In this document: positions 7,964 to 25,974 of the stretch, piece after piece
Layout of the letters: each line of letters starts with the position of its first letter
Numbering within the stretch: position 1 is the stretch's first letter
Translations under genes and position numbers: made by a program
Virus record (IMG/VR): IMGVR_UViG_3300027969_000084
Location: 1-64,000 of that record
Origin: a virus
DNA: 64,000 nucleotides
Strand: one strand, 5' to 3'
The notes under the pieces: generated by a model
What the model was told of the DNA's origin: nothing
The model's input: only the letters and a program-made list of their open reading frames with translations
The model's database searches: none

Positions 7964-7973
7964 AAAAGTACCA

Positions 7974-8222
7974 ACCCAAGATAGCAAAATCCAAAATACC
8001 ATCTGAAATAGAAAAAAATACCACCTAGGGTAGAGTGCCCAGAAAAATACAACCTAGAGTAGAGTAAATGCAACCTAGGGTAGAGTAGTCAAAAAAATGC
8101 AACTCAAAGTAGAATACAACTTAAAATAGCAAAATATAAAATACTATCTAGAATATAATACAACTTCAGGTAGAATGATTACAATTTACAATTTAAAGTA
8201 GAATGCCAACCTATGGTAGAAT
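7974..8222 (+). repeat. Degenerate TACAACCTA-GTAGAAT repeat array
   Basis: About eleven imperfect repeats of TACAACCTARRGTAGAAT follow one another at roughly 20-30 bp spacing. Examples are TACCACCTAGGGTAGAGT, TACAACCTAGAGTAGAGT, TGCAACCTAGGGTAGAGT and TACAACTTCAGGTAGAAT. Single copies also lie near 3330, 3348, 3827, 4891, 6081 and 8683. The TAGAAT/TAGAGT ends resemble the -10 of the rightward promoter at 3207. No gene is supported in this stretch. Confidence 0.7.
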
Positions 8223-8493
8223 GAAATCATCAGGAAAAAATTCAATCAAAAAATTTCCAGCCAAAATCTCTCAAGTATTTTAAAAAATTCCAAGTATATT
8301 TTTTCCAACATAAAAAAAATCCCATAGAAATTTTCTATATGATAATCCCAATGTTCTGCCAATGTTCCGGCCATGCGTCTAATATGCATTATGAGAAATA
8401 ATTTTTCTCTATACCAACAATCATAAGATAAAAACATCTAAACGAACATCCAAGTAATCATAAACCAAATACTATCAAACAATAAATTAATCA
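8223..8493. other. AT-rich gap with no supported gene
   Basis: Strongly AT-rich. A 63-codon leftward frame (8246-8437) has no ribosome site, no recognisable family and biased low-complexity content; not called. Confidence 0.5.
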
Positions 8494-8553: not shown

Positions 8554-8667
8554 ATGCCTAAGAAACTAACAACCCTTCAAAAAACCATGAAGACTATTAA
8601 ATCCAAACAAGCTAAAAAGACTAAAATGCTGAAGACAGCCATGAAGGTCATTAAGAAGAAGCGTTAA
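8554..8667 (+). CDS. Lys-rich small peptide, 37 aa
   Basis: Starts MPKKLTTLQKTMKTIKSK and ends KVIKKKR. About 40 percent of residues are Lys/Arg, with no acidic residues, in a probable single amphipathic helix. Preceded by AAGGA 10 nt upstream and a plausible promoter. It is an isolated rightward gene among leftward ones. Its composition recalls the KVPK peptides at 3447 and 6215 and suggests nucleic-acid binding; function unknown. Confidence 0.65.
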   Translation: MPKKLTTLQKTMKTIKSKQAKKTKMLKTAMKVIKKKR

Positions 8668-8689
8668 TCAACTAAAATGATTTGCAACC

Positions 8690-8866
8690 TATAATCGCAG
8701 AAAAAGTTCGCGAAAAAACTTCGCAACTTTTCCTCGCAACAAAAGTCTGCAAAGAAAGTTCGCAACTTTTTCAGGAAAACTTCGCATAAAAAGTCTGCAA
8801 GAAAACTTCGCAGAAAAACTCTGCAACTTTTTCTCAAAAAATCCGCAGACTTTTATCGCAACTTTT
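8690..8866. repeat. CGCAACTTTTT/GAAAACTTCGCA repeat cluster
   Basis: About 175 bp are built from CGCAACTTTTT (about five copies) and AACTTCGCA/GTCTGCAA variants. The first pair can form a hairpin (8702-8731, AAAAGTT-GCGAA with TTCGC-AACTTTT) that could terminate transcription from 8494. The rest looks like degenerate duplicates of that hairpin arm. Confidence 0.6.
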
Positions 8867-9144
8867 TAAAGATTTGACGACGATCTAATAGCCTCAAATT
8901 CCTCTTCAGTCTCAATAGCCTTACCATTAAATAAACCATATGGAGCAAATGGCTTCTTCACACCATTAATAAGATCATTAACTTCTTCCATTGATTCCGC
9001 TACAGTCCATATTACTGTAGAACCAGTAAGACCACCATAAATCAATGTCTTACTATCTTCAGAATACATCGATACAATGTGAGAAGGATTCAAATAAAGA
9101 ACCTTGCCCACATATTCTTCACTCGCATTCGTTAACTTAATCAT
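8866..9144 (-). CDS. FlbD/SwrD-like small protein, 92 aa
   Basis: The first 60 residues follow the pattern of the FlbD/SwrD flagellar family: MIKLTNASEEYVGKVLYLNP, then HIVSMYSEDSKTLI, then a closing VAESMEEVNDLI. A C-terminal extension (APYGLFNGKAIETEEEF) is additional. In bacteria this small protein supports flagellar motor power; in a phage it may simply be the same small beta fold with another role. Start at 9144 lies 7 nt after AAGGA; a TTG two codons earlier is less likely. Confidence 0.55.
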   Translation of the reverse strand: MIKLTNASEEYVGKVLYLNPSHIVSMYSEDSKTLIYGGLTGSTVIWTVAESMEEVNDLINGVKKPFAPYGLFNGKAIETEEEFEAIRSSSNL

Positions 9145-9212
9145 ATCCAAATCCTTAAAAACAATTCATTGAATATAACATACTAATAGTATATAAACAA
9201 ATATTAAGAAAA

Positions 9213-9635
9213 TTAGTCTTCAGACTTTCTAGCCTTCAACTTTTTAGTTTCTTTCTCACCAGTTTTCTGGCTGTATATACCATCAACACCATATTTTTTA
9301 TATCTATCTACCCAAGAATCAAGTTCTTCACGACTCATGTCATAACGCTTCTTAGCTTCTTCATATGAGAATAAACCAGCATCAATAAGAACTATTAACT
9401 TTAACTTCATTAATGGACTACCTATACCTCTAGGAGAATTAACCGGTAAATCATTTGCAGTAATTCTCATAGGCTTACCATTTACATCTATCACTACATG
9501 CTTCTGAGATAGTCTGTCATATTGTGAATCATTCTCCATCACTCTAGAACGAGAATGCTCCTTCAATAAGGATATAGCCTCATCATATATTCCATTACTC
9601 TCTAATAAAGCATAAAGCTTAGCAATCGGTGTCAT
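9213..9635 (-). CDS. SciP-like (DUF1153-type) HTH regulator, 140 aa
   Basis: Residues about 45-115 match the alphaproteobacterial SciP/DUF1153 pattern. VIDVNGKPMRITANDLPVNS is followed by a trihelical segment (KLKLIVLIDAGLFSYEEAKK, RYDMSREELDSWVDRYKKYG). In Caulobacter, SciP binds CtrA and blocks its activation of target promoters. The N-terminal 40 residues (LYALLESNGIYDEAISLL) and a Lys-rich C-terminal tail are extra. A GAATAAATA late-type motif lies upstream (9660-9667), and the start follows GGAG. Family call from motif memory; moderate confidence. Confidence 0.65.
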   Translation of the reverse strand: MTPIAKLYALLESNGIYDEAISLLKEHSRSRVMENDSQYDRLSQKHVVIDVNGKPMRITANDLPVNSPRGIGSPLMKLKLIVLIDAGLFSYEEAKKRYDMSREELDSWVDRYKKYGVDGIYSQKTGEKETKKLKARKSED

Positions 9636-9675
9636 AATAGTTCTCCATAACGTTAAAACTATTTATTCACATAAT

Positions 9676-9912
9676 TTAATCAAATAACGGAAACCATCTA
9701 TCAAACTCTTCAGGAACTAAATTATAACGAGATACAGCATCATCAAATGATATAGTATCAGAAAGAACCGCATGTACCAAAATGTCCTTCAATTCTTTAG
9801 TCCATTCTATATTACCAGTAGAAGGCAAATCTTTTAAATTATCTTCCCTATATTCATTCAATAATAATAGAGCCTCAGATAATAATAAAGATATCTTGTC
9901 TAAAGATTCCAT
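9676..9912 (-). CDS. Second SciP-like HTH protein, 78 aa
   Basis: Its C-terminal 40 residues (ELKDILVHAVLSDTISFDDA, VSRYNLVPEEFDRWFPLF) align with the helix-turn-helix part of the SciP-like protein next door and of DUF1153. The N-terminal half is a leucine-rich helix (MESLDKISLLLSEALLLL). The start at 9912 follows a run of seven G; the open frame continues to 10149 without a good start, so the longer form is possible but not favoured. Confidence 0.55.
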   Translation of the reverse strand: MESLDKISLLLSEALLLLNEYREDNLKDLPSTGNIEWTKELKDILVHAVLSDTISFDDAVSRYNLVPEEFDRWFPLFD

Positions 9913-10149
9913 AACAGTTCCCCCCCAATATTCAAAAATATTTATGGACATACCATCTATACAAAAATACATACTAAATTTATGCAGATTTTCTACACAA
10001 CTTTTCATAGGAAAATATGCAGGAAATTGTTGCCAAGTTTTATCACCATTTTTATACAAAAAGTTTACATAAAAATATCTAATACTTTGCTCAATATAAT
10101 ACTTTAGTCTATATTCGTGCAATACCCTTAAAAACCATCTTTTACTCAA

Positions 10150-10468
10150 TCATTTCAACACTATACCTAAACTATTTTTTATCATTATTATATCATACCT
10201 TATTACCATTTTTGTCAATTTGGCATATAAGAAATATTACATAAATGTGGCATGAATCATGATTTAGGTATAGTTCAAGTATAGTTATACAAACAATAGC
10301 TTTAATTATTTTTTCTATATTTTATAATACTTTGCTTAGATCATGAATGCTTATGATGATTGGTACAGATGATTGAAACAATGATCAGTTGAAGGTTTTT
10401 GAGAACGATTCTGTGGTACATTTAATGAAGACACTTTTTTGCTGTTTTATTGTATTTTGACAATTTGC
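10150..10468. other. AT-rich divergent intergenic region
   Basis: No gene seen. Contains an inverted pair ACTATACCTAAA (10160-10171) and TTTAGGTATAGT (10263-10274) about 90 bp apart, and a second GTATAGTTATAC nearby. It separates leftward from rightward transcription. Confidence 0.5.
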
Positions 10469-10706
10469 ATTAGTACTAATGTAAAAGGATTAGTACTAAG
10501 CTTTTTGAGAGGATTAGTACTAATTTGGGGTGGATTAGTACTAAGCTTTTTGTGGTGAATTAGTCCTAATTTTGATGCATTAGTACTAAGCTTTTTTGCA
10601 TCATTTTTTACCTCATTTTTGCTTATATAATTAGTACTAATTTTGATGCATTAGTACTAAGCTTTTTGGAAAGGATTAGTCCTAATTTGTTTGGATTAGT
10701 ACTAAT
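10469..10706. repeat. Ten-copy ATTAGTACTAAT repeat array
   Basis: Ten palindromic TTAGTACTAA or TTAGTCCTAA units start at 10469, 10489, 10513, 10534, 10559, 10579, 10630, 10650, 10675 and 10695. Steps alternate near 20 and 25 bp, with one gap of 51 bp, so sites recur about every two helical turns. Right flanks alternate between AATTT and AAGCTTTTT. The array lies just upstream of the RHH gene and looks like an operator, centromere or iteron array. Confidence 0.85.
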
Positions 10707-10769
10707 CCAATTATTGCATTTATGGTTACTGATTGTGTATGATGGCATCTATAATTAGGATATGCATAT

Positions 10770-10982
10770 ATGTCTTTATCGGACAAGAAAGAGATTAACA
10801 GGAAGGCTGCTGCTGCATTTACTTCTAAGAAGAAGGATCAGGGTCAGCGGTTGATTAAGGGTTGGGTTGATTCTGATACTTACGATATGTTAGTTTCTTT
10901 GAAGGGTTCTCGTTATAAGAGTACTGATGAACTTCTTGCTGATGCTATAGCTATCTTATATGTAACTGCGAATAATTTATAG
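10770..10982 (+). CDS. Ribbon-helix-helix-like DNA-binding protein, 70 aa
   Basis: Basic N-terminal arm (DKKEINRKAAAAFTSKKKDQ), then RLIKGWVDSDTYDMLVSL as the strand and first helix. YKSTDELLADAIAILYVT would be the second helix, the usual order of RHH proteins such as CopG/Arc/ParG. Start follows AGGA at 7 nt. It is the first gene rightward of the ten-site array, which is the natural candidate for its binding site: autoregulation or partition. Assignment rests on pattern only. Confidence 0.6.
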   Translation: MSLSDKKEINRKAAAAFTSKKKDQGQRLIKGWVDSDTYDMLVSLKGSRYKSTDELLADAIAILYVTANNL

Positions 10983-10991: not shown

Positions 10992-11465
10992 GTGAAGATT
11001 ACACAGGAAAGATTAAAAGAGTTATTAGATTATGATCCTATTTCTGGTATTTTTACTAGGAAGAAGGATGGTAAGATTGTTGGTCGTTTAAATGAAAATG
11101 GCTATGTTATTATAAACGTTGATGGTATTTTATTTAGGTCTCACCGATTGGCATGGTTATATGTTTATGGTGGTATTGTTCCATTTCCTTTAGATCATAT
11201 AGATGGCAATAAAGAAAATAATTCTATTAATAATCTCAGGTCTTGTACTCAAAGTCAGAACCAAGCTAACATACCATTATCTAAGAATAGCACTAGTGGG
11301 TTAAAAGGTGTTTGGTATGATAAGCCTAAGAAGAAATGGAAGGCTGGGATTAAGAAAGACAATAAGAAATATCATTTAGGTTATTATCTTACTAAGGAAG
11401 AAGCGCACGAGGCATATTGCAAGGCTGCTGTTGAGTTCTTTGGTGAATTTGCGAGATTTAAATAA
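10992..11465 (+). CDS. HNH homing endonuclease with AP2 domain, 157 aa
   Basis: An HNH core is visible (RSHRLAWLYVYGG, LDHIDGNKENNSINNLRSC), followed by a NUMOD/AP2-type DNA-binding segment (SGLKGVWYDKPKKKWKAGI, YYLTKEEAHEAYCKAAVEF). Starts with GTG after AGGA, 9 nt after the RHH gene. Free-standing phage homing endonucleases of this kind nick related phage DNA and spread their own gene. Confidence 0.9.
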   Translation: MKITQERLKELLDYDPISGIFTRKKDGKIVGRLNENGYVIINVDGILFRSHRLAWLYVYGGIVPFPLDHIDGNKENNSINNLRSCTQSQNQANIPLSKNSTSGLKGVWYDKPKKKWKAGIKKDNKKYHLGYYLTKEEAHEAYCKAAVEFFGEFARFK

Positions 11466-11469: not shown

Positions 11470-11643
11470 ATGACTGATGATGAAAAAGAGATTATTGATC
11501 AACTTGCGAAAGTTTGGAACTTATTTATTAGTCTTCCGGTTGAACATCCTAGTGATTTGGGGGAGTTTCAAACAGCCATACATTCTGCTCAACTATTAGT
11601 AATGGCTCGTTTGGGTAGAAGGATTTATAATGAACGGTCTTAG
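11470..11643 (+). CDS. Small helical hypothetical protein, 57 aa
   Basis: Starts MTDDEKEIIDQLAKVWNLF at 11470, five bases after the HNH stop; a longer frame from 11431 overlaps the HNH gene. Two predicted helices are joined by LPVEHPSDLGEFQTAIHSAQ and end VMARLGRRIYNERS. Not assigned. The last 4 nt overlap the convergent GNAT-like gene. Confidence 0.65.
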   Translation: MTDDEKEIIDQLAKVWNLFISLPVEHPSDLGEFQTAIHSAQLLVMARLGRRIYNERS

Positions 11644-12092
11644 TGTGGTCTGTTAAAGCCACGTAGCTTGACAATCGTCGGGGCGAATCTGACCATAGAA
11701 AAACTATCTTCATCTTGTCGTATCGTGGAAAACCCAAACTTTTTATACCATTTTTCTAGTTGTTCTGTTGTCATTCGATTATTGCCAAATGCTTTTGCCG
11801 TAAGCTCTAATTGTACTCCAAGCTTGTTGGCCAATGAGCATATAAATTTCATAGTTTTAGAAGCATGTCCTTGATTTGGTTCTATTGCAGAAATATCATG
11901 AATATAAATGGCATCTTTTCTTAGCCTTGAAAGATGCATCATGGTTAACCCATGAATTCGTTTTTTATTATCCCATGGGTGAGGTGATGTAGCATTGTTG
12001 AATTCATCAATAAACTGATCGGCTGGGCCAGCTTCTGATGGTTTATTTGCAAGGGTTAATACATTTGATTCTATGATTTCTGAGTAGCGCAT
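11640..12092 (-). CDS. GNAT-like acetyltransferase with capsid-targeting-like leader, 150 aa
   Basis: Begins MRYSEIIES, the same leader type as several proteins in this window and similar to the T4 internal-protein leader. The body carries an acetyl-CoA-loop-like EPNQGHASKTMKFICSLANK (about residues 72-91), then a KWYKKFGFSTIRQDEDSFSM segment typical of the GNAT C-terminus. A TAAATA motif lies 4 nt before the ATG. It may be a virion-packaged protein-modifying enzyme (inference). Confidence 0.65.
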   Translation of the reverse strand: MRYSEIIESNVLTLANKPSEAGPADQFIDEFNNATSPHPWDNKKRIHGLTMMHLSRLRKDAIYIHDISAIEPNQGHASKTMKFICSLANKLGVQLELTAKAFGNNRMTTEQLEKWYKKFGFSTIRQDEDSFSMVRFAPTIVKLRGFNRPH

Positions 12093-12137: not shown

Positions 12138-12920
12138 ATGAATAATGCTGTTTTTATGTATGATGAAACTCCGGAAGATGAGCTTACGGATATTCCTGTA
12201 GATAATATTCCTGTAGATGATACCGAAAGTAAACAGGATCAGCTTGATTATGCGATATATTCTTTATTAAATAAGATATTTGAGGAATCGAGTACTGATA
12301 AGGCGTTAGTAGATTTGTTTATCAATCCTACGTCGGATGATGGGGTTGAGTATGGTGATGTTATTATTATTCATAGTTCCGATGAATATGAATATGATGC
12401 TGAATATCGAGCCAAGATTGATGCATATGTTAGCGATGAAGGATATGAAGAGGATATAGATTATATTAAGGATTGTATTATTATAGATTCTAATCACAAT
12501 CCTTACAATATTGGGGAGATTGATAGAAATTTGAACATCATGCATGATTATATTATAAAAGCCAAAAATGGTAGTTTTGACATTAGGTTTTCTACCTGTT
12601 TTTATGAGCTTGAATTAATACAAACTAAGGTCGTTTATGCCAACATGGATACTGGTGGCTGGGAAGGGCCGGATAGTATTAGGATTAAAGATAGTTATAA
12701 ACTTTTACCTGTTTATGTTTGTTATTTGGATGTTGGTGGTATGGAAGATGATATTCAATATGATGTTTCTATTGCGGGTATGAATAAATTAATCTCTGAT
12801 ATAGAGACGCATGAAATTTATTGTAAGTTGAATGACACTCTTGTTACGGATTTTGATTTTTCTCATCGTTCTAGAAATATTTCTTTGATTAAGTTTCCTT
12901 GTCCTTGTTGTAGTGAATAG
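12138..12920 (+). CDS. Acidic hypothetical protein, 260 aa
   Basis: Not recognised. Strongly acidic throughout; begins with a repeated DIPVDNIPVDD segment and ends in a Cys-rich FPCPCCSE. Middle part is Tyr/Asp-rich (SSDEYEYDAEYRAKIDAYVS). First gene of the rightward accessory run; the next gene begins 6 nt later. No leader peptide or membrane segment. Confidence 0.75.
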   Translation: MNNAVFMYDETPEDELTDIPVDNIPVDDTESKQDQLDYAIYSLLNKIFEESSTDKALVDLFINPTSDDGVEYGDVIIIHSSDEYEYDAEYRAKIDAYVSDEGYEEDIDYIKDCIIIDSNHNPYNIGEIDRNLNIMHDYIIKAKNGSFDIRFSTCFYELELIQTKVVYANMDTGGWEGPDSIRIKDSYKLLPVYVCYLDVGGMEDDIQYDVSIAGMNKLISDIETHEIYCKLNDTLVTDFDFSHRSRNISLIKFPCPCCSE

Positions 12921-13665: not shown

Positions 13666-13983
13666 ATGAATGAAGAAGACGATCAAATTGTATTTGTGCA
13701 GGAATATTGGGAAAATATATCGCATGTTAATAATCCATCGGAAGTAGTTCAGTTAGCTTCTGTTAAAGAATTTCCTCATGCTATTGCTTTTATTAAAAAT
13801 CCAAGTGAAAAAGTTCAACTAGCGGCTGTTATGCAAAATAGTTCTGCAATTGGATATATTAAGAATCCAAGTGAAGCAGTTCAAGTAGCGGCTGTTACTG
13901 AAGATGGATGGGCAATTAAATATATTGATAATCCGAGTGATCGGGTTAAGATGCTTGCAGAATTATGTAAGGAACATGTGTGA
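13666..13983 (+). CDS. DUF4116-like NPSE-repeat protein 1, 105 aa
   Basis: Three to four 22-residue repeats of the form NPSEAVQLAAVxQNGxAIxYIK, resembling DUF4116. The N-terminal cap is MNEEDDQIVFVQEYWENI and the C-terminal cap NPSDRVKMLAELCKEHV. Each repeat should form a pair of short helices, giving a small solenoid. It opens a block of ten consecutive paralogues joined by TGATG or ATGA overlaps, so they are probably translated together from one message. Confidence 0.85.
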   Translation: MNEEDDQIVFVQEYWENISHVNNPSEVVQLASVKEFPHAIAFIKNPSEKVQLAAVMQNSSAIGYIKNPSEAVQVAAVTEDGWAIKYIDNPSDRVKMLAELCKEHV

Positions 13984-14495
13984 TGACTGAAGAAGAGCAA
14001 ATTGCATGTGTGAAGGAACATTTAGGAAATATCCGATACATCAAGAATCCATCTGAAGCAGTTAAGTTGGCTGCTGTTACACAATATGCATTGGCAATTC
14101 GATATATTAAGAATCCATCTGAAGCAGTTAAATTGGCGGCTGTTGCTCGATGGGGCGATGCGCTTCAATATATTAATAATCCGAGTGAAGCAGTTCAATT
14201 GGCTGCGGCCACTCAATATGGAACGGCAATTCAATATATTGATAATCCAAGTGAGCAAGTTCAATTGGCGGCTGTCATTGGAAATGGATATGCAATTAAA
14301 CATATCAAGAATACAATTGATCTAGTTAAATTGGCTGCGGTTGCTCAAAATGGAAAGGCAATTCAATATATTAAGAATCCGAGTGAAGAAGTTCAATTAG
14401 CGGCTGTTACTGAAAATGGCTGGGCTATTCAATATATTGATAATCCGAGTGATCGGGTTAAGATGCTTGCGGAACTATGCAAGGAATATGCATGA
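13983..14495 (+). CDS. DUF4116-like NPSE-repeat protein 2, 170 aa
   Basis: About six full repeats plus the NPSDRVKMLAELCKEYA cap. Start ATG overlaps the upstream stop (TGATG); a GTG one codon earlier is possible. The fifth repeat is the most diverged (KNTIDLVKLAAVAQNG). N-terminal cap MTEEEQIACVKEHLGNIRYI is shared by most later members. Confidence 0.85.
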   Translation: MTEEEQIACVKEHLGNIRYIKNPSEAVKLAAVTQYALAIRYIKNPSEAVKLAAVARWGDALQYINNPSEAVQLAAATQYGTAIQYIDNPSEQVQLAAVIGNGYAIKHIKNTIDLVKLAAVAQNGKAIQYIKNPSEEVQLAAVTENGWAIQYIDNPSDRVKMLAELCKEYA

Positions 14496-15139
14496 TGACT
14501 GAAGAAGAGCAAATTGCTGCCGTTACTAAAGATGCATGGGCAATTCAATGGATAGATAATGCAAGCGAAGTCGTGCAATTAGCGGCTGTTACTAATCATG
14601 TGTATGCAATTCAGTATATAAAAAATCCAAGTGAAGCTGTGCAATTGGCTGCGGTAATGAACGATGGAGAGGCAATTCGAGATATTAATTGTCCATCTGA
14701 AGCAGTTCAGTTGGTTGCTGTCACGCGAGATATAGATGCAATTCAATATATTGGAAATCCAAGTGAACTAGTTCAATTAGTTGCTGTTAAACAAGACGGT
14801 TTTGCAATTCAATATATCAATAATCCATTAGAAACAGTTCGATTGGCGGCTGTTAAAAAACATGGGTCGTCAATCCAATATATTAACGATCCAAGCGAAG
14901 CCGTTCAATTATCGGCTGTTACTCAAAATGGACATGCAATTTATTATATTAATAATCCATCTGAAGAAGTTCAGCTAGCGGCTATTATGCAAAATAGTTC
15001 TGCAATTGCATATATTGATCATCCATCTGAAGAATTGCAAGTAGCGGCTGTTACTCAAAATGGTTGGGCTATTCGTCATATAAAGAATGCATCTGAACGG
15101 GTTAAGATTCTTGCTGAATTATGCAAGGAATATGCGTGA
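14495..15139 (+). CDS. DUF4116-like NPSE-repeat protein 3, 214 aa
   Basis: Eight to nine repeats, the longest of the contiguous block. Starts MTEEEQIAAVTKDAWAIQWI at a TGATG overlap. Segments such as AAIMQNSSAIAYIDHPSEEL recur almost unchanged in the protein at 16616, evidence of recent duplication or gene conversion. Confidence 0.85.
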   Translation: MTEEEQIAAVTKDAWAIQWIDNASEVVQLAAVTNHVYAIQYIKNPSEAVQLAAVMNDGEAIRDINCPSEAVQLVAVTRDIDAIQYIGNPSELVQLVAVKQDGFAIQYINNPLETVRLAAVKKHGSSIQYINDPSEAVQLSAVTQNGHAIYYINNPSEEVQLAAIMQNSSAIAYIDHPSEELQVAAVTQNGWAIRHIKNASERVKILAELCKEYA

Positions 15140-15519
15140 TGACTGAGGAAGAGCAAATTGCTTACGTAACGAAAAATGGAGAGAATATCCGGCGTATTAA
15201 GAATCCATCAGAATATATTCAATTGGTTGCTGTTCGAAGAAATGGTTTTGCAATTGAATATATTGATAATCCATCCGAGGAAGTTCAAATGGCTGCTATT
15301 GAAAAAAATGCATATACCCTCGAATATATCAAGAATCCATCTGAAGCAGTTCAATTAGCTGCTATTACTAAAAATGGATATGCAATTCTATATATTAAGA
15401 ATCCATCCGAAGAGTTTCAATTAATTGCAGTTCAACAAAATGGATATGCAATTCATTATATTGACAATCCAAGTGACCAAGTTAAAGTTATGGCTGAAAT
15501 GTGCAAGAGATATTCATGA
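15139..15519 (+). CDS. DUF4116-like NPSE-repeat protein 4, 126 aa
   Basis: Five repeats between an MTEEEQIAYVTKNGENIRRI cap and a NPSDQVKVMAEMCKRYS cap. Coupled to its neighbours by TGATG (5') and ATGA (3') overlaps. Confidence 0.85.
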   Translation: MTEEEQIAYVTKNGENIRRIKNPSEYIQLVAVRRNGFAIEYIDNPSEEVQMAAIEKNAYTLEYIKNPSEAVQLAAITKNGYAILYIKNPSEEFQLIAVQQNGYAIHYIDNPSDQVKVMAEMCKRYS

Positions 15520-15869
15520 CCGAATCCGAAAAAGTTAGATATGTGTATATGACTGAAGAAGAACAAATAGCACATGTTCAGAAACATTGGGAAAATATCC
15601 GATATATTCATAATCCATCCGAAGAGGTTCAATTAGCTGCTGTTTCTTTTTATGGCCCCGCCATTCAATGGATTAATAATCCATCTGAAGCAGTTAAAAT
15701 AGCGGCTGTCACGCAACGTGGATTTACTGTTATCAATTTTGATGATCCAAGTGAAGCGGTTCAATTAGCTGCGGTTACTCAAAATTGTGGGGCAATTACA
15801 TTTATTAAAAATCCGACAGATAGTGTTCTGGTTCTTGCAAAATTACTCAAGTACATGCCTAATGACTGA
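15516..15869 (+). CDS. DUF4116-like NPSE-repeat protein 5, 117 aa
   Basis: Four repeats. Unusual N-terminus MTESEKVRYVYMTEEEQIAH: the standard MTEEEQ cap is preceded by 11 residues that look like a partial duplicate of the cap, and either ATG (15516 or 15549) could be used; 15516 keeps the ATGA overlap. The C-terminal cap is diverged (TDSVLVLAKLLKYMPND). Confidence 0.8.
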   Translation: MTESEKVRYVYMTEEEQIAHVQKHWENIRYIHNPSEEVQLAAVSFYGPAIQWINNPSEAVKIAAVTQRGFTVINFDDPSEAVQLAAVTQNCGAITFIKNPTDSVLVLAKLLKYMPND

Positions 15870-16176
15870 AGAAGAAAAAATTGAACATGCGGCAGCATAT
15901 TGGGGGTCGATTAAAGATATTGAAAATCCATCTGAAGCAGTGCAATTGTCTGCGGTTCAATACTCTGCGTATTCTATTACATATATTCAAAACCCATCTG
16001 AAGTAGTTCAATTGGCGGCTGTTACACAAAGTGGAGACGCAATTGCATATATTGATAATCCAAGTGAAGAAGTTCAATTAGCTTCCGTTATACAAAATGG
16101 TTGGGCAATTGAATTTATTAAAAATCCATCTGATCGTGTTAAGATCGTTGCTGAATTATGCAAGGTTCATCCATGA
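15862..16176 (+). CDS. DUF4116-like NPSE-repeat protein 6, 104 aa
   Basis: Four repeats. Starts MTEEEKIEHAAAYWGSIKDI inside the last 8 nt of the previous gene. The C-terminal cap is NPSDRVKIVAELCKVHP. Confidence 0.85.
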   Translation: MTEEEKIEHAAAYWGSIKDIENPSEAVQLSAVQYSAYSITYIQNPSEVVQLAAVTQSGDAIAYIDNPSEEVQLASVIQNGWAIEFIKNPSDRVKIVAELCKVHP

Positions 16177-16619
16177 CTGAAGAAGAAAAAATCGCATATG
16201 TGACAACACATTGGCATGCAATTGGGCATATTGAGAATCCATCTGAAGCAGTTCAGTTGGCGTCTGTTAATAATCATGGATATACAGTTAAATATATTAA
16301 GAATCCAAGTGAAGCAGTTCAATTGGCGGCTGTTACACAAAGTGGATATGCAATCCATTATATTAATAATGCTAGTGAAGAAATTAAATTGGCTGCTGTT
16401 AAACAAGACGGTTTTGCAATTCAATATATCAATAATCCATCCGAAGCGGTACAACTGGCTGCTGTAAATAATCTTGGACATGCAATTCGGTATATTAAGA
16501 ATCCATCTGAAGAAGTTCAAATAGCGGCGATTATACAAGATGCACGGGCAATTAATGTAATTGATAATCCATCCGATACTGTTAAAATTATTGCAGAAAT
16601 GTGCAAGAGATATTCATGA
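16173..16619 (+). CDS. DUF4116-like NPSE-repeat protein 7, 148 aa
   Basis: Six repeats. Starts MTEEEKIAYVTTHWHAIGHI at an ATGA overlap. One repeat carries NASEEIKLAAVKQDGFAIQY, and the last cap is NPSDTVKIIAEMCKRYS. Confidence 0.85.
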   Translation: MTEEEKIAYVTTHWHAIGHIENPSEAVQLASVNNHGYTVKYIKNPSEAVQLAAVTQSGYAIHYINNASEEIKLAAVKQDGFAIQYINNPSEAVQLAAVNNLGHAIRYIKNPSEEVQIAAIIQDARAINVIDNPSDTVKIIAEMCKRYS

Positions 16620-16999
16620 CTCAAGAAGAACAAATGGCCAATGTCCAACGAAATGGGCGGCTCATTCTAGGTATTGATAATCCATCCGAAGAAGTTCAGT
16701 TGGCGGCTGTTCGACAAAATGGATATGCTATTCATTTTATTGATAATCCATCCGAAGCAGTTAAATTAGCCGCTGTTAGGCAAAATGGATATGCAATTTA
16801 TTATATTAAGAATCCATCTGAAGAAGTTCAGCTAGCGGCTATTATGCAAAATAGTTCTGCAATTGCATATATTGATTATCCATCTGAAGAATTACAATTA
16901 GCTGCGGTTACGCAAAATGGATGGGCGATCCATATGATTGAAAATCCGAGTGAACGAGTTAAGATTATTGCTGAACTTTGCAAGGTACATGATGACTGA
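16616..16999 (+). CDS. DUF4116-like NPSE-repeat protein 8, 127 aa
   Basis: Five repeats. N-terminal cap differs slightly (MTQEEQMANVQRNGRLILGI). Internal repeat VQLAAIMQNSSAIAYIDYPS nearly duplicates one in protein 3, and the cap matches protein 9. Confidence 0.85.
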   Translation: MTQEEQMANVQRNGRLILGIDNPSEEVQLAAVRQNGYAIHFIDNPSEAVKLAAVRQNGYAIYYIKNPSEEVQLAAIMQNSSAIAYIDYPSEELQLAAVTQNGWAIHMIENPSERVKIIAELCKVHDD

Positions 17000-17468
17000 A
17001 GAAGAACAAATGGCTAATGTCCAACGAAATGGGCGGCTCATTCAATTTATTAAGAAGCCATCTGCGGCGGTGCAACTCGCTGCTATCCAGCAAAACGCAT
17101 GGGCAATCCATTACATTAAAAATCCTAGCAAAAAGTTGCAGTTGATTGCTATTAAAAAACAACCTAAAGTAATCAAATATATCAATAATCCATCTGAAGA
17201 AGTTCAGTTGGCTGCGGTTACTCAAAGTGGCTGGGTGATCTATGATCTTAAGAACCCATCGGAAGATGTTAAACTTGCCGCCGTTTCATCTGCTGGTCGG
17301 TCGATAAAATACCTCAATGACCCAAGTGAGAAAGTTCAACTAGCCGCAATTCAACAGGACTGTAATGCAATTAATTATATTGTAAATCCATCCGATGTTG
17401 TTCTAATTTTTCATGCCATGTGTTATGATTATCGTGATGAGGATGAGGGCGACGATGGCGATGACTGA
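16992..17468 (+). CDS. DUF4116-like NPSE-repeat protein 9, 158 aa
   Basis: Six repeats with more divergence than its neighbours (NPSKKLQLIAIKKQPKVIKY). It ends in an acidic tail RDEDEGDDGDD not seen in other members. Start overlaps the previous gene by 8 nt; an ATG one codon earlier is equally possible. Confidence 0.8.
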   Translation: MTEEEQMANVQRNGRLIQFIKKPSAAVQLAAIQQNAWAIHYIKNPSKKLQLIAIKKQPKVIKYINNPSEEVQLAAVTQSGWVIYDLKNPSEDVKLAAVSSAGRSIKYLNDPSEKVQLAAIQQDCNAINYIVNPSDVVLIFHAMCYDYRDEDEGDDGDD

Positions 17469-17712
17469 AGAAGAACAAATTACCTATGTTAAGGAAGATT
17501 GGATGAAAATCCGATATATCGAGAATCCATCTGAGGCTGTTCAATTAGCTTCAGTTACTGAACATCCATTTTCTATTCAATTTATTAAAAACCCATCCGA
17601 AGAAATTAAATTAGCTGCTGTTACAAAAAGCGGATGGGTTATTACATGTATCAAGAATCCATCGGATAATTTAAGGATACTTGCTGAACTATCTAAGCTA
17701 CCTATTCAATAA
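17461..17712 (+). CDS. DUF4116-like NPSE-repeat protein 10, 83 aa
   Basis: Shortest member, two to three repeats between MTEEEQITYVKEDWMKIRYI and NPSDNLRILAELSKLPIQ. Last gene of the contiguous block; a terminator follows. Confidence 0.85.
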   Translation: MTEEEQITYVKEDWMKIRYIENPSEAVQLASVTEHPFSIQFIKNPSEEIKLAAVTKSGWVITCIKNPSDNLRILAELSKLPIQ

Positions 17713-17721
17713 AAAGTTTTC

Positions 17722-17760
17722 GAGGATGAAACCGTTTTCCATATTTCACCCTCTATTTTT
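17722..17760 (+). terminator. Intrinsic terminator
   Basis: Stem GAGGATGAAA (17722-17731) with TTTCACCCTC (17744-17753), followed by TATTTTTT; ends the DUF4116-like operon facing the convergent glycosyltransferase gene. Confidence 0.7.
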
Positions 17761-18689
17761 TATTTGATTATTACATTATCTCTTTTATCATTTTTATCGC
17801 CATCAATGAGTTTTAGTCCGTATTCATTGATTTCATTGTTAACAACGAAACTGGCTTTTCTCTTCAATGGATTATTCTTAAACGGGCTATAATCGACATA
17901 ATGGTGCCAACGATTAAACTTCCATACAACCGAAGCCACATTAGGATATGCATCTTCTAGCATTTTGGATTTGGCTAGTGTACCTTCGACTTCATAAAAA
18001 TCCTTATTGTTTCCACCAGCCATGCGCTGAGTAGTAACCTTTCCTTGTAGGAAAGCATTCAATTGAATGGTTGCCCATCCGGCGGTCAATACATCTAAGC
18101 ACAATATGGTATCTTCGTTATATCGTCCGCGCCATTTGAAAGGTATATCATTACGAATCAGAAGGCATGAATAGATTCTTGTATTAAGGCAATATGGTCT
18201 AGCTCTAGAATCAGATTTACAAAAAGAGTAATAGTTGAATCCGGCGATTGCTAGGTTTTCATATCTATCTACAAAATCTTCTGTTGCCACGAAGTTAACA
18301 TTTGTCCGCATAGGGCATTTAATGTTTCTATTCAGACGGTGGAAATCATCGATATTATCATCTAATACCCAATGCCACTTATGTCCTTCTGCAATAGAAT
18401 GATCCCATGCAAAGTTTCGCGCAGGACCAGGACCTGTACTTTTGGTAAAACCATGATCGTCTAGTAGTTCATATTCTTCTTTATACTTCTTAGGAAGTAT
18501 CAGAAGTCTATCTGCTCCGACGACCTTAGCGTATTCGTCAAACTCTTGTTCTTCTACGATAACCCTGAATGGAACGCCGAGCCTAGTAAGCGCTCTATTG
18601 GTTGTCATATTGGTATATCGACCTTTTGATACGATATACACTGGATAGCGGTTTTCCTGTTTATTCTTGTATCCAGCGTTTTGCTGCAT
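17760..18689 (-). CDS. TET-associated-type glycosyltransferase (TAGT), 309 aa
   Basis: Glycosyltransferase-A-like protein of the phage TAGT/GREB1-related family. PVYIVSKGRYTNMTTNRALT (residues 17-36) is followed by VPFRVIVEEQEFDEYAKVVG, GPGPARNFAWDHSIAEGHKW and WVLDDNIDDF, a DxD-type motif. Further on lie GRYNEDTILCLDVLTAGW and TQRMAGGNNKDFYEVEG. Relatives are predicted to sugar-modify hydroxymethylated bases in phage DNA. Start follows AGGAAAG and overlaps the upstream gene by 29 nt, indicating an operon. Confidence 0.8.
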   Translation of the reverse strand: MQQNAGYKNKQENRYPVYIVSKGRYTNMTTNRALTRLGVPFRVIVEEQEFDEYAKVVGADRLLILPKKYKEEYELLDDHGFTKSTGPGPARNFAWDHSIAEGHKWHWVLDDNIDDFHRLNRNIKCPMRTNVNFVATEDFVDRYENLAIAGFNYYSFCKSDSRARPYCLNTRIYSCLLIRNDIPFKWRGRYNEDTILCLDVLTAGWATIQLNAFLQGKVTTQRMAGGNNKDFYEVEGTLAKSKMLEDAYPNVASVVWKFNRWHHYVDYSPFKNNPLKRKASFVVNNEINEYGLKLIDGDKNDKRDNVIIK

Positions 18690-18924
18690 TCTTTCCTCGC
18701 TCTAATTCTGGATACCAAGCACTCTTAGTTTTTGGTGTTAATTTTTGGCCAATCAATTTAGAAAAAGCATCTAAATCTTCTTGATTGTCGAAACGAAAAA
18801 TAATCTTAGCGAATGGTGGTTTATTTTCCTGAACAAACTCAGGCATTTCTACCCATTCTTCGGTTGATGATGTATCATCCTGATTATCATCAAGATCACC
18901 CAACCAATCGTCCAATGATGACAT
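18661..18924 (-). CDS. Small protein co-transcribed with TAGT, 87 aa
   Basis: Acidic N-terminus (MSSLDDWLGDLDDNQDDTSS), then KIIFRFDNQEDLDAFSKLIG and TPKTKSAWYPELERG. This strand-helix plus TKSxWYP pattern occurs in many phages as a small protein of unknown function. The FRFDNQEDLDAF portion also resembles the C-terminal strand-helix of the FKLRWG family. It shares a transcript with the glycosyltransferase. Confidence 0.7.
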   Translation of the reverse strand: MSSLDDWLGDLDDNQDDTSSTEEWVEMPEFVQENKPPFAKIIFRFDNQEDLDAFSKLIGQKLTPKTKSAWYPELERGKNAAKRWIQE

Positions 18925-18964
18925 AACTATCTCCAGATAATTTTAAATATGTTTCACAATATCG

Positions 18965-18983
18965 GACACGATATAATCGTGTC
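18965..18983. promoter_or_regulatory. Inverted-repeat operator candidate
   Basis: Perfect inverted repeat GACACGAT-ATA-ATCGTGTC. It overlaps the -35 (TTGACA, minus strand 18980-18985) and spacer of the leftward promoter for 18924, and lies between two divergent units, as expected of a repressor site. Confidence 0.6.
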
Positions 18984-19009
18984 AATAATAAAATGGGTTA
19001 TGGTTGATG

Positions 19010-19037
19010 TTGCATTTTTTGATAGTTTTGCTATACT
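19010..19037 (+). promoter_or_regulatory. Promoter, TTGCAT-N16-TATACT
   Basis: Rightward sigma70-like boxes about 35 bp before the gene at 19073. Confidence 0.6.
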
Positions 19038-19072
19038 GAAAAAGATTTATACATGGAGAAATAGCAGGCAAT

Positions 19073-19351
19073 ATGGATGAAGATATCGAAATCATTACTC
19101 TTGATGATCAGCAGACGGAACGTCTTGTTGTAATTGGTGTTGACTGGGACGATAATCTCGACCGTCCTGCACACAATGCTATATTTACTACTGAAGTTGA
19201 CGAATGGTGTTTAGAAAATCTTTTAAAATCAACACGTATTCGTTGTGGCAGGCATTTTTATAGTTTACAGCCGTATGATTATCATTATGAGATTGATGTA
19301 GAGTTTGGTTCTGAAGATGATTTGTTTTTGTTTACCTTGAGGTGGCTTTGA
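19073..19351 (+). CDS. FKLRWG-family small protein, 92 aa
   Basis: Ends VEFGSEDDLFLFTLRWL, the family's terminal strand-helix. Acidic N-terminus (MDEDIEIITLDDQQTERLVV) and a central helix DEWCLENLLKSTRIRCGRHF. Coupled to the next member by a TGATG overlap. Confidence 0.75.
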   Translation: MDEDIEIITLDDQQTERLVVIGVDWDDNLDRPAHNAIFTTEVDEWCLENLLKSTRIRCGRHFYSLQPYDYHYEIDVEFGSEDDLFLFTLRWL

Positions 19352-19674
19352 TGGAAGATTTTGAATCAAATCCGGTCGAGGCACAGACTGAAGCTGAAAT
19401 AAAATATTTTACAATGTTGCTTTCTCGGCTTGATTTTCTTAAGAATCAGGATCGATGGTTAAATATTCTCTCAAAAGATAGAGAATCTGATTTGTATGAT
19501 AATGTTGTGGAAATTAACATCAAAGAATCGAATGCGGTTGTAGAAAATATCAATTGGTGGCTGCGCGATAATGGTGGGAATTGGGGCTGCGGTTTTAATT
19601 TCTCAAATTTTACAATTTCTTTCAATTTTGAAGATAATAATACTGCTATTCATTTTAAGCTAAATTGGGGCTGA
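19351..19674 (+). CDS. FKLRWG-family small protein, 107 aa
   Basis: Starts MEDFESNPVEAQTEAEIKYF and ends FNFEDNNTAIHFKLNWG. Has the VENINWWLRDNGGNWGCGF segment, which corresponds to the W-x-x-x-NLxGxW motif of other members. A TGATG overlap joins it to the previous gene. Confidence 0.75.
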   Translation: MEDFESNPVEAQTEAEIKYFTMLLSRLDFLKNQDRWLNILSKDRESDLYDNVVEINIKESNAVVENINWWLRDNGGNWGCGFNFSNFTISFNFEDNNTAIHFKLNWG

Positions 19675-19701
19675 TTGTGTTTAAGCAATGGATATTTGGT
19701 A

Positions 19702-20217
19702 ATGACTGAAGAAGAAAACCTTGAACGTGTAAAGAAAAATGGATGGGAAATTCAATATATTGAAAATCCATCAGAAGAAGTACAACTAGCTGCGGTTAAA
19801 CAACGTGGATGGGCAATTCGATATATTAAGAATCCATCAGAAGCCGTTCAATTGGCTTCAGTTCAACAAAATGGATATGCTATTAAATGGCTTAAGAATC
19901 CATCCGAAGAATTACAAATGATAGCGGTTCTACAATTCTCTGGTTTGACAATCGAAAATATTGAGAATCCAAGTGAAGAAGTTCAATTAACTGCGGCCAA
20001 ACAAAATGGGGCAGTTATTGAATGGATTAAAAATCCGAGTGAAGAGGTCCAGTTGGCTGCTGTTACTAATAATGGCTGGTTCGTTAAATATATTAATAAC
20101 CCGTCTGAAGCAGTTCAATTAGCTGCGGTTACTGAAAATGGTTGGGCCATTAAATATATTGATAATCCTACTTACCGAGTCAAGGTACTTGCCGAATTAT
20201 GCAAGGATCATGACTGA
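19702..20217 (+). CDS. DUF4116-like NPSE-repeat protein 11, 171 aa
   Basis: Seven repeats between MTEEENLERVKKNGWEIQYI and NPTYRVKVLAELCKDHD. The chosen ATG matches the family cap; the frame extends 27 nt upstream. Separated from the main block by the glycosyltransferase operon and two FKLRWG genes; its 3' end overlaps the convergent gene by 10 nt. Confidence 0.85.
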   Translation: MTEEENLERVKKNGWEIQYIENPSEEVQLAAVKQRGWAIRYIKNPSEAVQLASVQQNGYAIKWLKNPSEELQMIAVLQFSGLTIENIENPSEEVQLTAAKQNGAVIEWIKNPSEEVQLAAVTNNGWFVKYINNPSEAVQLAAVTENGWAIKYIDNPTYRVKVLAELCKDHD

Positions 20218-20690
20218 TTAGTTACATACATGCTCCAGAAAGGCCCTTTAATAGGGTCATCTTCTCTTTCAGGGAATAAATATTCATTCAATCTCGCAAC
20301 CCAATCAGGAGTTAGGTGATGATTGCGAAGTCCTCCGGTAGGGAAGATATGAACTTCTTGGTGTTGGGTGCCTTCAAGTTGCTGAAGAGCTACCATACGA
20401 TTCCTGCCTTCATGCCCTGTAATTCTTGCTGGACGAGACAAATCACCTTCTTCCCATTCATCTGGGATAGTAACGAGTAAGAATGGTGCTGCTAGATGTC
20501 CACCTTCTTGTACATGTTGTATCATGCTCTTGACACTAATCTGTTCGCCTAATGGTGCGGCCAACTTAAGGAAAGTATATGGTTTCATTCTGACGCGAAG
20601 ACCCTTGTAGTCAACATTGCGATTATCAGCCACTGCGCCCCAACCGTTTTCATTGTCCATTTGATGTTCGAAGATTTCGTGCGCTCGCAT
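20208..20690 (-). CDS. ParB/Srx-like protein with leader, 160 aa
   Basis: Begins MRAHEIFEHQMDN, a capsid-targeting-like leader. The body contains RVRMKPYTFLKLAAPLGEQI and RITGHEGRNRMVALQQLEGT, the GHEGRxR box of ParB/sulfiredoxin-fold phage proteins, then HQEVHIFPTGGLR. A perfect TATAAATA on the minus strand (20717-20724) suggests late expression. Catalytic activity unproven; a virion-associated role is inferred from the leader and promoter. Confidence 0.6.
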   Translation of the reverse strand: MRAHEIFEHQMDNENGWGAVADNRNVDYKGLRVRMKPYTFLKLAAPLGEQISVKSMIQHVQEGGHLAAPFLLVTIPDEWEEGDLSRPARITGHEGRNRMVALQQLEGTQHQEVHIFPTGGLRNHHLTPDWVARLNEYLFPEREDDPIKGPFWSMYVTNQS

Positions 20691-20716
20691 TTATTATTCT
20701 CGTTTTGATTGTATAC

Positions 20717-20724
20717 TATTTATA
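20717..20724 (-). promoter_or_regulatory. T4-type late promoter TATAAATA
   Basis: Exact T4 late-promoter octamer 26 bp upstream of the ATG at 20690. Confidence 0.65.
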
Positions 20725-20746
20725 CGCTTGATTTTTTAACCAGATT

Positions 20747-20929
20747 ATGATATTATTTAATTACGATATGGCGGCGAGGGCAGAGGAAAATCGTAACTTC
20801 ATCGTTGGACAGACTGCTGAAATTTTATGCGATGTGATCACGCAGAACCAAGATGGTACATATTCGTTGCGTTTCCCACGCTTTGTACGCTTTAGAGATG
20901 ACAAGGAGAACCAGAATGACTCAATATAG
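20747..20929 (+). CDS. Hypothetical protein, 60 aa
   Basis: MILFNYDMAARAEENRNFIV at the N-terminus, then a beta-like NQDGTYSLRFPRFVRFRDDK segment. No ribosome site is obvious; the internal ATG at 20768 is an alternative start. Overlaps the next gene by 14 nt. No family recognised. Confidence 0.5.
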   Translation: MILFNYDMAARAEENRNFIVGQTAEILCDVITQNQDGTYSLRFPRFVRFRDDKENQNDSI

Positions 20930-21164
20930 AATCAAAAAGTTAGGCCCAAAACTTTACGAAGTTCAAAAGAAAGTACTTTTGTATTGGGGTGATGCTTTTA
21001 GTACCATGACGGGTGTGGCGAACATGAGGCGGTTAGAGAATAGACAGTTTGACTCCTATCATGCAGCAAGATCATATTTAAAAAACTATCTAGAAAAGGG
21101 TATGAATGTAAAGAAGAACGTTCCAGCATATTTTTATCCACCCTTTCCCGATAACGAACCATAA
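20916..21164 (+). CDS. Hypothetical protein, 82 aa
   Basis: Starts MTQYRIKKLGPKLYEVQKKV after AAGGAG at 7 nt, which excludes the longer reading. Basic; contains FDSYHAARSYLKNYLEKGMN and ends YFYPPFPDNEP. No family recognised. TAATG overlap with the membrane protein downstream. Confidence 0.7.
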   Translation: MTQYRIKKLGPKLYEVQKKVLLYWGDAFSTMTGVANMRRLENRQFDSYHAARSYLKNYLEKGMNVKKNVPAYFYPPFPDNEP

Positions 21165-21472
21165 TGAACATTAAACTTAAAGCAGCATTGTACACCATTA
21201 TTCCATACCTCGGTACAGCGATATGGCTGTTTTCATTGGCAACTTGGTATGAACCAACACTGTTATTCACTCTGTTTTTTCTTTGGTTTGTCGCACTACC
21301 ATTCGCTATTTACAATCTCGTATACCTTAATCTAAAAGGTAAGCAGAATAGAGCAGATGACCAACAACGGATGAAAGATTTTATAGCCGAGAATAAAAAA
21401 GCAAGTGACAGGGTACAACAAACGGTTAACGCCATGCTAGACAGGCATCGTGACCGTTCGCGCAGGTCATAA
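21164..21472 (+). CDS. Two-helix membrane protein, 102 aa
   Basis: Two hydrophobic spans (ALYTIIPYLGTAIWLFSLAT and LLFTLFFLWFVALPFAIYNL), then a basic coiled-coil-like tail (RMKDFIAENKKASDRVQQTV). Likely an inner-membrane protein with a cytoplasmic tail. No lysis-cassette context (no endolysin nearby), so a holin role is not supported. Confidence 0.65.
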   Translation: MNIKLKAALYTIIPYLGTAIWLFSLATWYEPTLLFTLFFLWFVALPFAIYNLVYLNLKGKQNRADDQQRMKDFIAENKKASDRVQQTVNAMLDRHRDRSRRS

Positions 21473-21498
21473 ATTATTACCAATTGGGATTTTTAAAT

Positions 21499-21867
21499 AT
21501 GAATGATCGCAATGACGACGGGCGTCTTAAGTTCGTGGGTTATAATGGGCATTATTCTAGTTATGATATTTGGGGGCAGACGATCCGTTCCGGCGAGGAG
21601 CATCTAATTCACCCATCTTTTGCTAAATTGTATATTCAAGATGATAAACAAATTAGTTTATATACTAAAGAATGGAGGGTCTCCGTAGGAGCCGATGATA
21701 CTATAACAATCTTCAAAACCGAAGATGGACCCAATGGTGCTAAAGAAACTGAATTGGTTGTTAATGCCTTGCGGAATCCATTGGATGAAAGAAACCGATT
21801 GGCTATTAAAATCATGGACTGCGACGATGATACTTTGATGCGCTTGAAGTTGTTCTTAGGGGAATAA
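21499..21867 (+). CDS. Hypothetical protein, paralogue of next gene, 122 aa
   Basis: Starts MNDRNDDGRLKFVGYNGHYS. Its C-terminus (NPLDERNRLAIKIMDCDDDT, LMRLKLFLGE) aligns with the next protein's DLEDERSRLALKVLKADEET ending. Both endings also resemble the terminal F-K-L motif of the FKLRWG family. The beta-rich first half (DIWGQTIRSGEEHLI) matches the same position in the paralogue. Unknown function. Confidence 0.7.
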   Translation: MNDRNDDGRLKFVGYNGHYSSYDIWGQTIRSGEEHLIHPSFAKLYIQDDKQISLYTKEWRVSVGADDTITIFKTEDGPNGAKETELVVNALRNPLDERNRLAIKIMDCDDDTLMRLKLFLGE

Positions 21868-21910
21868 ATTATGAAACTTTCCACACACGCTAACATGAAA
21901 GAGTTTTAAA

Positions 21911-22237
21911 ATGTCTCATATCACCAAAATAGGTAATTATAAGTATAGCTTGTGGGGCAATGATTCCAATAAAAGCTTATTTGTTAATGAACATTTTTGC
22001 GTAATAAACATTGGTGGAGATAATGAATGGGACATCGAGTTTATGCAAGATGGTTCAGATTTTAGCATTCATAGAACTACTTTCACTAAAAATAAATCTT
22101 TGGCTGATATTAATGAAGACATTTCTTTTTTTACTAATGCCATTAAGGATTTAGAGGATGAACGCTCTCGTCTTGCCTTGAAAGTGTTAAAAGCCGATGA
22201 AGAAACATTGTTTCGCATGAAGTTATTTTTCGAGTAA
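21911..22237 (+). CDS. Hypothetical protein, paralogue of previous gene, 108 aa
   Basis: Starts MSHITKIGNYKYSLWGNDSN and ends TLFRMKLFFE. Shares its overall plan with 21499-21867: a beta-rich first half, an acidic DERxRLAxK helix and a terminal hydrophobic strand. Probable tandem duplication. Confidence 0.7.
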   Translation: MSHITKIGNYKYSLWGNDSNKSLFVNEHFCVINIGGDNEWDIEFMQDGSDFSIHRTTFTKNKSLADINEDISFFTNAIKDLEDERSRLALKVLKADEETLFRMKLFFE

Positions 22238-22257
22238 ATTATGCAGAACGATTTGCC

Positions 22258-22578
22258 ATGAATATTTTTGATAACTTACCGTCTTATATCGGTGGGGATG
22301 TTGCCTCTCGTGCAATATATCGCGTTTATGACAAAAAATGTATGCCCGATCTTGTTTATAAGAATATTCAAATTTACCAAAACGATTGGTTGAAAAAGAA
22401 CTTGCCATATAGTTTTGGCGTTGATGATGCCATGTATTTAAACTTTCCTGATGAAGAATTGCTACCGTGGATTATTGATAATTTGCGAGGTGCTTGGCAT
22501 GCTAGAAAATCTCCGTATGGCTATATAAGATTTGAAGATAAGAGCGATGCTGCATTATTTAAATTGCGATGGTTTTGA
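22258..22578 (+). CDS. FKLRWG-family small protein, 106 aa
   Basis: Typical member: LPWIIDNLRGAWHARKSPYG, then YIRFEDKSDAALFKLRWF at the end. TGATG overlap with the next gene. Confidence 0.8.
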   Translation: MNIFDNLPSYIGGDVASRAIYRVYDKKCMPDLVYKNIQIYQNDWLKKNLPYSFGVDDAMYLNFPDEELLPWIIDNLRGAWHARKSPYGYIRFEDKSDAALFKLRWF

Positions 22579-22862: not shown

Positions 22863-22889
22863 TTTAACGAAAAATGAACTCATACAACA

Positions 22890-23105: not shown

Positions 23106-23126
23106 GATTCCTATATGATATAGGTC

Positions 23127-23806: not shown

Positions 23807-23821
23807 TAATTGGAGATAATC

Positions 23822-24121: not shown

Positions 24122-24132
24122 GGAATCTCTTG

Positions 24133-24902: not shown

Positions 24903-24922
24903 TTTTATAATTGTGTTATTCT
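24895..24922 (+). promoter_or_regulatory. Promoter, TTGATT-N16-TATTCT
   Basis: Sigma70-like boxes 23 bp before the largest NPSE gene. Confidence 0.55.
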
Positions 24923-24944
24923 CAATAGGATTATGGAGAACGCA

Positions 24945-25973: not shown

Positions 25974-25974
25974 A

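Follow-up and report, generated by a model that had tools for sequence, protein, structure and literature searches.

Within 240 bp of noncoding DNA between diverging genes of a jumbo phage fragment lie ten near-identical copies of a 10-bp palindrome, and we consider their best reading, at a probability of roughly 45%, to be a multi-dimer operator array that controls divergent promoters. Transcriptional control was our first guess because the array sits between diverging transcription units, beside regulator genes and 64 bp from the start of a small gene that we call R1. A replication origin comes as a close second because the gap is AT-rich, strand composition switches there and two more repeat arrays (7972-8224 and 8695-8870) are present. 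The operator and origin readings are compatible, since initiators often repress their own promoter. The ten-site array, placed at the GC-skew minimum and beside an orphan basic gene and SciP-like regulators, offers a single 240-bp target for separating the operator, origin and partition readings.

Results

The window, by which we mean the whole 64,000-nucleotide stretch that was analysed, comprises bases 1-64000 of a 69,695-base linear IMG/VR record. Its DnaB-like helicase shares 53% identity with that of the Agrobacterium jumbo phage Atu_ph07, 51% with that of Sinorhizobium phage Phosso and 47% with that of Pseudomonas phage PA5oct, and a large virion-type protein of the window finds its matches in the same group. 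Because both proteins match the Atu_ph07/Phosso/PA5oct group, the window is a fragment of an Atu_ph07/PA5oct-like jumbo phage, of which, judging from the relatives' sizes of 287-490 kb, perhaps some 200-400 kb lies beyond the record. The host is probably an alphaproteobacterium, as suggested by two SciP-like DUF1153 proteins (CtrA inhibitor family; 9213-9912, - strand) and a MucR/Ros regulator (46941-47498, - strand), all of which are of alphaproteobacterial regulator type. The window also carries an NAD-making cluster on the - strand (41695-46789: NAD synthetase, isochorismatase-type hydrolase, nicotinate phosphoribosyltransferase and a cytidylyltransferase-like/NUDIX protein) and numerous paralogous DUF4116 repeat proteins, whose repeat units measure 66 bp (13666-26595). 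A TET-associated glycosyltransferase gene (TAGT; 17760-18689, - strand), for which PHROG gives beta-glucosyl-HMC-alpha-glucosyltransferase, suggests that the phage DNA is modified.

The array occupies 10469-10706 and consists of ten 10-bp palindromes, eight of them exact copies of TTAGTACTAA and two of the form TTAGTCCTAA, arranged in five two-site units of about 45 bp. The sites start at 10470, 10490, 10514, 10535, 10560, 10580, 10631, 10651, 10676 and 10696, the last base being 10705, so that successive steps measure 20, 24, 21, 25, 20, 51, 20, 25 and 20 bp. An initial annotation of this DNA had described ten palindromes at alternating 20/25-bp steps directly before a gene; the ten sites and the alternation are real, but the alternation is imperfect and is broken by the one 51-bp gap, and the array does precede R1, but with 64 bp between the last site and the start of that gene. 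The site pair makes a better repeat unit than the single site. By this division the units measure 44, 46, 71 and 45 bp plus a partial last one, each with two sites, the third being stretched by 26 bp through a spacer (10590-10630) that ends in a TATAAT abutting site 7, a possible -10 box of a promoter called by eye (repeat D6). A T directly follows the first site in five of five units, and GCTTTTT follows the second site in four of five. Both TTAGTCCTAA variants, in which a central A has become C, are likewise the first sites of their units, namely site 5 (10560-10569) in unit 3 and site 9 (10676-10685) in unit 5.

Chance as the origin of the array is excluded because the gap that holds it (9913-10769) contains 10 sites, whereas 2000 dinucleotide shuffles averaged 0.0125 and never exceeded 1; across 100 shuffles of the whole window, moreover, the most that any 10-bp palindrome reached in 300 bp was 3 copies, compared with the 8 found here. 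Column identity between units is 0.970 for the sites and 0.630 for spacers and flanks, a difference matched by 1 of 20,000 permutations. Since the sites are 97% conserved and the spacers 63%, selection acts on the palindromes, and the pattern is what would be expected as the remnant of selection for a bound dyad atop an old tandem duplication. The view that these are clustered dyads of protein-binding type under selection is supported. A neutral minisatellite without function is by the same token improbable. Such arrays do exist, as in a Bacteroidetes MAG contig where the same palindrome recurs nine times at a spacing of 21 bp, but there the intervening sequence is nearly identical from copy to copy; the diverged spacers and conserved sites set our array apart from a plain minisatellite of that kind.

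The least probable of the alternatives that we weighed is an RNA or cruciform element, in which neighbouring palindromes would pair as hairpins in a transcript or a single strand. The four half-array strands gave folding z-scores of -6.8, -3.7, -6.6 and -4.2, which agree with it, but any self-complementary repeats fold together; the two C variants are uncompensated in their partners (as at site 5 against its would-be hairpin partner, site 6), and no Rfam family matched above its gathering score, the best being RT-6 at 23.4 against 46.7 bits.

No other cluster of the palindrome was found elsewhere in the window when up to one mismatch was allowed, and the piece at 63000-69695 holds a single one-mismatch site, at 63463. 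Because no other part of the window has a cluster of the motif, the action of the array would be local. A kinship of the array site with an early palindrome, TTAACACTAA, had also been proposed; we dropped this resemblance as weak, given that 5.7% of random AT-rich 10-bp palindromes match that palindrome equally well.

We looked for the array and for R1 in other genomes. Searches for R1 came back empty in Phosso, Atu_ph07, PA5oct, XaC1, SCTP-2 and four smaller related contigs, as they did in phage, plasmid and viral contig collections and in 398 Pseudomonadota genomes, and neither R1 nor the array was found in 47 of 80 further DnaB relatives, nearly all of them short fragments (29 of the other 33 are contigs of less than 10 kb). 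By blastn the array had no match in the plasmid collection, and the phage collection gave only one weak 42-base match to a Bacillus phage. The neighbouring stretches 12138-12917, 9213-9632 and 11643-12092, used as queries, returned no relatives. The degenerate motif TTAGTMCTAA is absent from the four smaller related contigs. Of the five phages Phosso, Atu_ph07, PA5oct, XaC1 and SCTP-2, four have single, scattered TTAGTNCTAA sites; a comparable palindrome cluster was found neither in Phosso and Atu_ph07 nor in the pieces of XaC1 that were examined, the maximum being 3 copies within 600 bp (XaC1). Xanthomonas phage XaC1 (OR258281.1) has 20 exact copies of the motif, and was considered as a relative that uses it. 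We rejected this candidate, its copies going with a genome-wide excess of AGTACT: this hexamer is about tenfold enriched in XaC1, some 7 to 22 times commoner than base composition predicts in 11 of 11 pieces, and the 20 copies are for that reason uninformative on the array.

Pairs of TTAGTACTAA turned up in 25 stretches of viral contigs and 24 stretches of genome contigs. Positions were counted in all of these and the sequence was viewed for 5 of the 25 and 3 of the 24; none was shown to combine alternating spacing with diverged spacers, and one of the stretches has ten sites at multiples of 21 bp, as seen from positions only. Literature searches by sequence word and by topic found no description of this array, the sequence word giving one unrelated paper, and likewise none of replication origins or early control regions for the jumbo phages of this clade.

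Gene R1 (10770-10982, + strand) encodes a basic protein of 70 amino acids with a pI of 9.3 and shows gene-like codon use in its own frame only. Its leader (10706-10769), which the last palindrome abuts, has a TATAAT at about 10750 (repeat D6) and an AGGA before the ATG; the promoter is a reading by eye, as is the other TATAAT box, at about 10626, and a consensus promoter scan found no rightward promoter near R1 and fewer matches than in shuffles. Nine bp after R1 begins the gene of an HNH endonuclease with an AP2 domain (10992-11465, + strand), which is probably mobile.

The initial annotation took the protein of this gene for a ribbon-helix-helix (RHH) protein, and this we could not sustain. 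No family in Pfam, PHROGs or NCBIfam matched R1, and the RHH_1, RHH_3 and ParD models did not find it. On a home-made profile of 12 RHH sequences R1 scored -3.4 bits, a score equalled by 243 of 500 shuffles, whereas 12 of 12 left-out RHHs beat all of their 100 shuffles, these controls being easy members of which the Pfam model detects 11 with E of at most 1e-4. Modelled by AlphaFold2 from its single sequence, R1 comes out all-helical (pLDDT 73.8) with no RHH match in the PDB, judged against one fold control only, and the model has no significant match among PDB or viral models. That control, a known RHH of 53 amino acids put through the same procedure, folded as strand-helix-helix, and its best PDB matches were RHHs (TacA2, AtaR, FitA, CopG and Arc), at E of at least 0.5. 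We therefore reject R1 as an RHH protein on present evidence from profile searches, shuffles and, less firmly, the fold model, with the controls working; profiles do miss small divergent RHHs, so that an RHH identity is not disproved. A pattern picked out by eye in R1, GSRYKSTDELLADAIAIL, resembles an RHH second helix, and beyond the eye nothing backs the label.

A protein encoded at 65657-66103 of the record (- strand), 55 kb from the array, is better supported as an RHH than R1: it reaches 10.1 bits on the home-made profile, a score that 0 of 500 shuffles equalled, and has a weak match to RHH_1 (E 0.005, short of the cut-off). It is a candidate for an alternative in which the array sites serve a regulator encoded elsewhere, be it this RHH-like protein, a SciP-like protein or a host factor that the array titrates as a decoy. 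An RHH dimer would fit a 10-bp dyad, and SciP-like genes flank the gap. Against this stand the lack of such sites upstream of the RHH-like gene and the finding that none of the 24 genome-contig stretches with TTAGTACTAA pairs is titled as an alphaproteobacterium. We regard an elsewhere-encoded regulator as a minor possibility.

The noncoding gap between the diverging genes spans 9913-10769 (857 bp, 27% GC) and is the fourth longest gap among the listed genes; its left end is set at 9913 because the SciP-like reading frame, though open to 10149, has by codon use a start near 9912. That the array stands where gene direction diverges is upheld. On its left, all on the - strand, lie the second SciP-like (DUF1153) regulator gene (9676-9912), the first (9213-9635) and a gene for a small FlbD-like protein (8866-9150), a weak match at E 0.002 that falls below the Pfam cut-off.

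The cumulative GC skew of the window reaches its minimum inside the gap, at 10207, 263 bp from the array. By segment the skew is -0.44 and -0.19 to the left and +0.26 to +0.29 to the right, and the sign changes in noncoding DNA. The three nearest leftward genes have third-position G:C ratios on the + strand of 2:24, 7:30 and 2:14, and the rightward genes at 10.5-15.2 kb have a skew of +0.52. Gene direction alone fails to explain all of the skew, because on the right side of the array three genes that run leftward (11.6-20.7 kb) keep more G than C on the + strand (114:89). Transcription strength could be the source of much of the skew, and the left-hand skew fades within about 2 kb.

Two other repeat arrays lie to the left, making three different arrays within 2.8 kb. 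Array A (7972-8224) holds about eleven diverged copies of AATACAACCTANRGTAGAAT, counted by eye; matches to AATACAACCTANRGTAGAAT with at most three mismatches number 18 in the window against 0.9 expected, and the motif also occurs near several left-cluster genes. Array B (8695-8870) holds about fourteen 13-bp units of TCGCANNNAAAGT type, also counted by eye, and lies directly beyond the stop of the FlbD-like gene. Between A and B we read by eye a small, very basic ORF, MPKKLTTLQKTMKTIKSKQAKKTKMLKTAMKVIKKKR (8556-8669, + strand). A 23-bp early palindrome, TTAACACTAAWWWTTAGTGTTAA, has nine copies further left, at 221 (with one change), 1079, 2273, 3293, 3862, 4826, 5293, 6025 and 7940; the two inspected, at positions 221 and 1079, each lie upstream of a leftward promoter of TTGAC(A/T) type, and the viral contig collection had no match to it.

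These features bear on the possibility that an initiator binds the palindromes as iterons, with an AT-rich melting region alongside (9913-10469) and forks leaving both ways from about 10.2-10.5 kb. Like an iteron origin, the locus has repeated sites next to AT-rich DNA, here ten sites in a gap of 27% GC, the repeats being palindromic, and it has a switch in strand composition, one confounded with gene direction yet not fully explained by it. The three arrays add to the case, as does a precedent in the PLE satellite, whose origin is set in 2.7 kb of noncoding DNA that separates divergent operons and carries four kinds of repeat, the iteron among them (PMC7145576). On the other side, no gene of a recognised initiator family lies nearby, the primase and DnaB genes being at 54-57 kb, and the left-side skew fades within a short distance. 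Phosso lacks a clear single skew minimum, that of Atu_ph07 is at 366 kb, and neither phage yielded a comparable cluster of palindromes. Iterons are, furthermore, usually direct repeats and not perfect palindromes. An origin is accordingly a possible reading, below that of an operator in our ranking.

Partition, which the initial annotation had raised alongside cooperative operators, suggesting as a check a search for a ParM/ParA-like gene elsewhere in the genome, fared worse. Under this reading the array would belong to the parC, parS or sopC class of sites and would anchor the phage DNA to a segregation motor, and ten clustered repeats adjoining a small basic gene do recall one. The repeats of parC on plasmid R1 are split around a promoter and ParR of pSK41 uses 20-bp repeats (PMC5016525, PMC9426499), and the closest look-alike of 45-bp units with dyads is parS of the F plasmid, in which twelve tandem repeats of 43 bp contain ten inverted repeats of 16 bp (PMC6238139). 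Yet the search for a partner gene came back empty: 38 of 39 ORFs of at least 180 amino acids in the 69.7-kb record, as listed without those open at its left end and excluding one antisense to the UvrD gene, gave no match to the ParA, ParB, ParM or TubZ families of Pfam, although a motor gene may lie at a distance from this fragment. Among these ORFs Pfam gave no hit for the actin-like ParM of a type II (ParMRC) system, nor for the ParA ATPase and centromere-binding protein (ParB, ParG or omega) of types Ia and Ib. Gene R1 is not an RHH by the tests run, there is no integration or plasmid-replication gene among the annotated genes, and the clustered repeats are palindromic with diverged spacers and come with no par operon. 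A partition site is for these reasons unlikely.

Discussion

We favour the operator reading on several counts: the dyads are perfect and conserved, the AT-rich gap lies between divergent genes with two SciP-like regulators as neighbours, the last site abuts the leader of R1, TATAAT boxes stand at about 10626 and 10750, and R1 has gene-like codon use and a basic pI. Other observations pull against it. For plain autoregulation ten is a large number of sites, family and RHH profile searches recognised no DNA-binding domain in R1, the promoter scan gave no rightward promoter near R1, no relative with array or gene was found, and the GC-skew pattern fits an origin equally well.

A perfect 10-bp dyad suits a single dimer, and in the operator model a small DNA-binding protein would cover each palindrome as one dimer. 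These dimers would load in pairs, presumably cooperatively, with partners 20 bp apart within 45-bp units, and ten paired perfect dyads fit such a cooperative complex. The resulting nucleoprotein complex, covering about 240 bp, may then set the activity of the promoters that lie between the leftward SciP-like genes and rightward R1. The most likely binder would be R1 itself, in autoregulation, the alternative being another phage regulator. If R1 does bind the array, it would be a DNA-binding protein outside every family library searched.

A bolder and rather doubtful extension treats the whole of 7.9-10.8 kb as a hub for replication and takeover. There the three arrays would stand with phage copies of cell-cycle regulators (SciP-like and FlbD-like, with MucR encoded elsewhere), and R1, as a new family of small basic protein, would assemble on its ten palindromes and so start replication or time it against the host cell cycle.

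Among known systems, the viral RHH repressors Arc and AvtR of AFV6 share with this locus a small protein, clustered short dyads and a divergent control region, with multi-site operators; they are RHH proteins, whereas R1 gave no RHH match. The origin of the PLE satellite is alike in its several repeat types, its noncoding position between divergent operons, its AT-richness and its skew switch, and it and iteron origins differ from our array, which has no adjoining RepA-like initiator and whose sites are perfect palindromes (PMC7145576). For partition sites the parallels divide. The parC sites bound by the RHH protein ParR in the type II systems of plasmid R1 and pSK41 resemble the array in that about ten short repeats precede a small gene and fall into sets with a gap between them where a promoter may lie; they differ in being direct repeats of 10-11 bp or 20 bp where the array has palindromes with diverged spacers (PMC9426499, PMC5016525), and the neighbour of the array fails the RHH tests and no ParM was found. 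In the F plasmid, a type Ia system, parS adjoins sopAB. This site, also known as sopC, is alike in its tandem units of 43-45 bp, its short inverted-repeat sites and their number of about ten, and unlike in that it sets 16-bp dyads in 43-bp repeats, while the array has two 10-bp dyads per unit and no ParA or ParB was found (PMC6238139). By this comparison the array resembles F parS more than it does ParR or omega sites, its partner genes being missing from the visible part of the genome.
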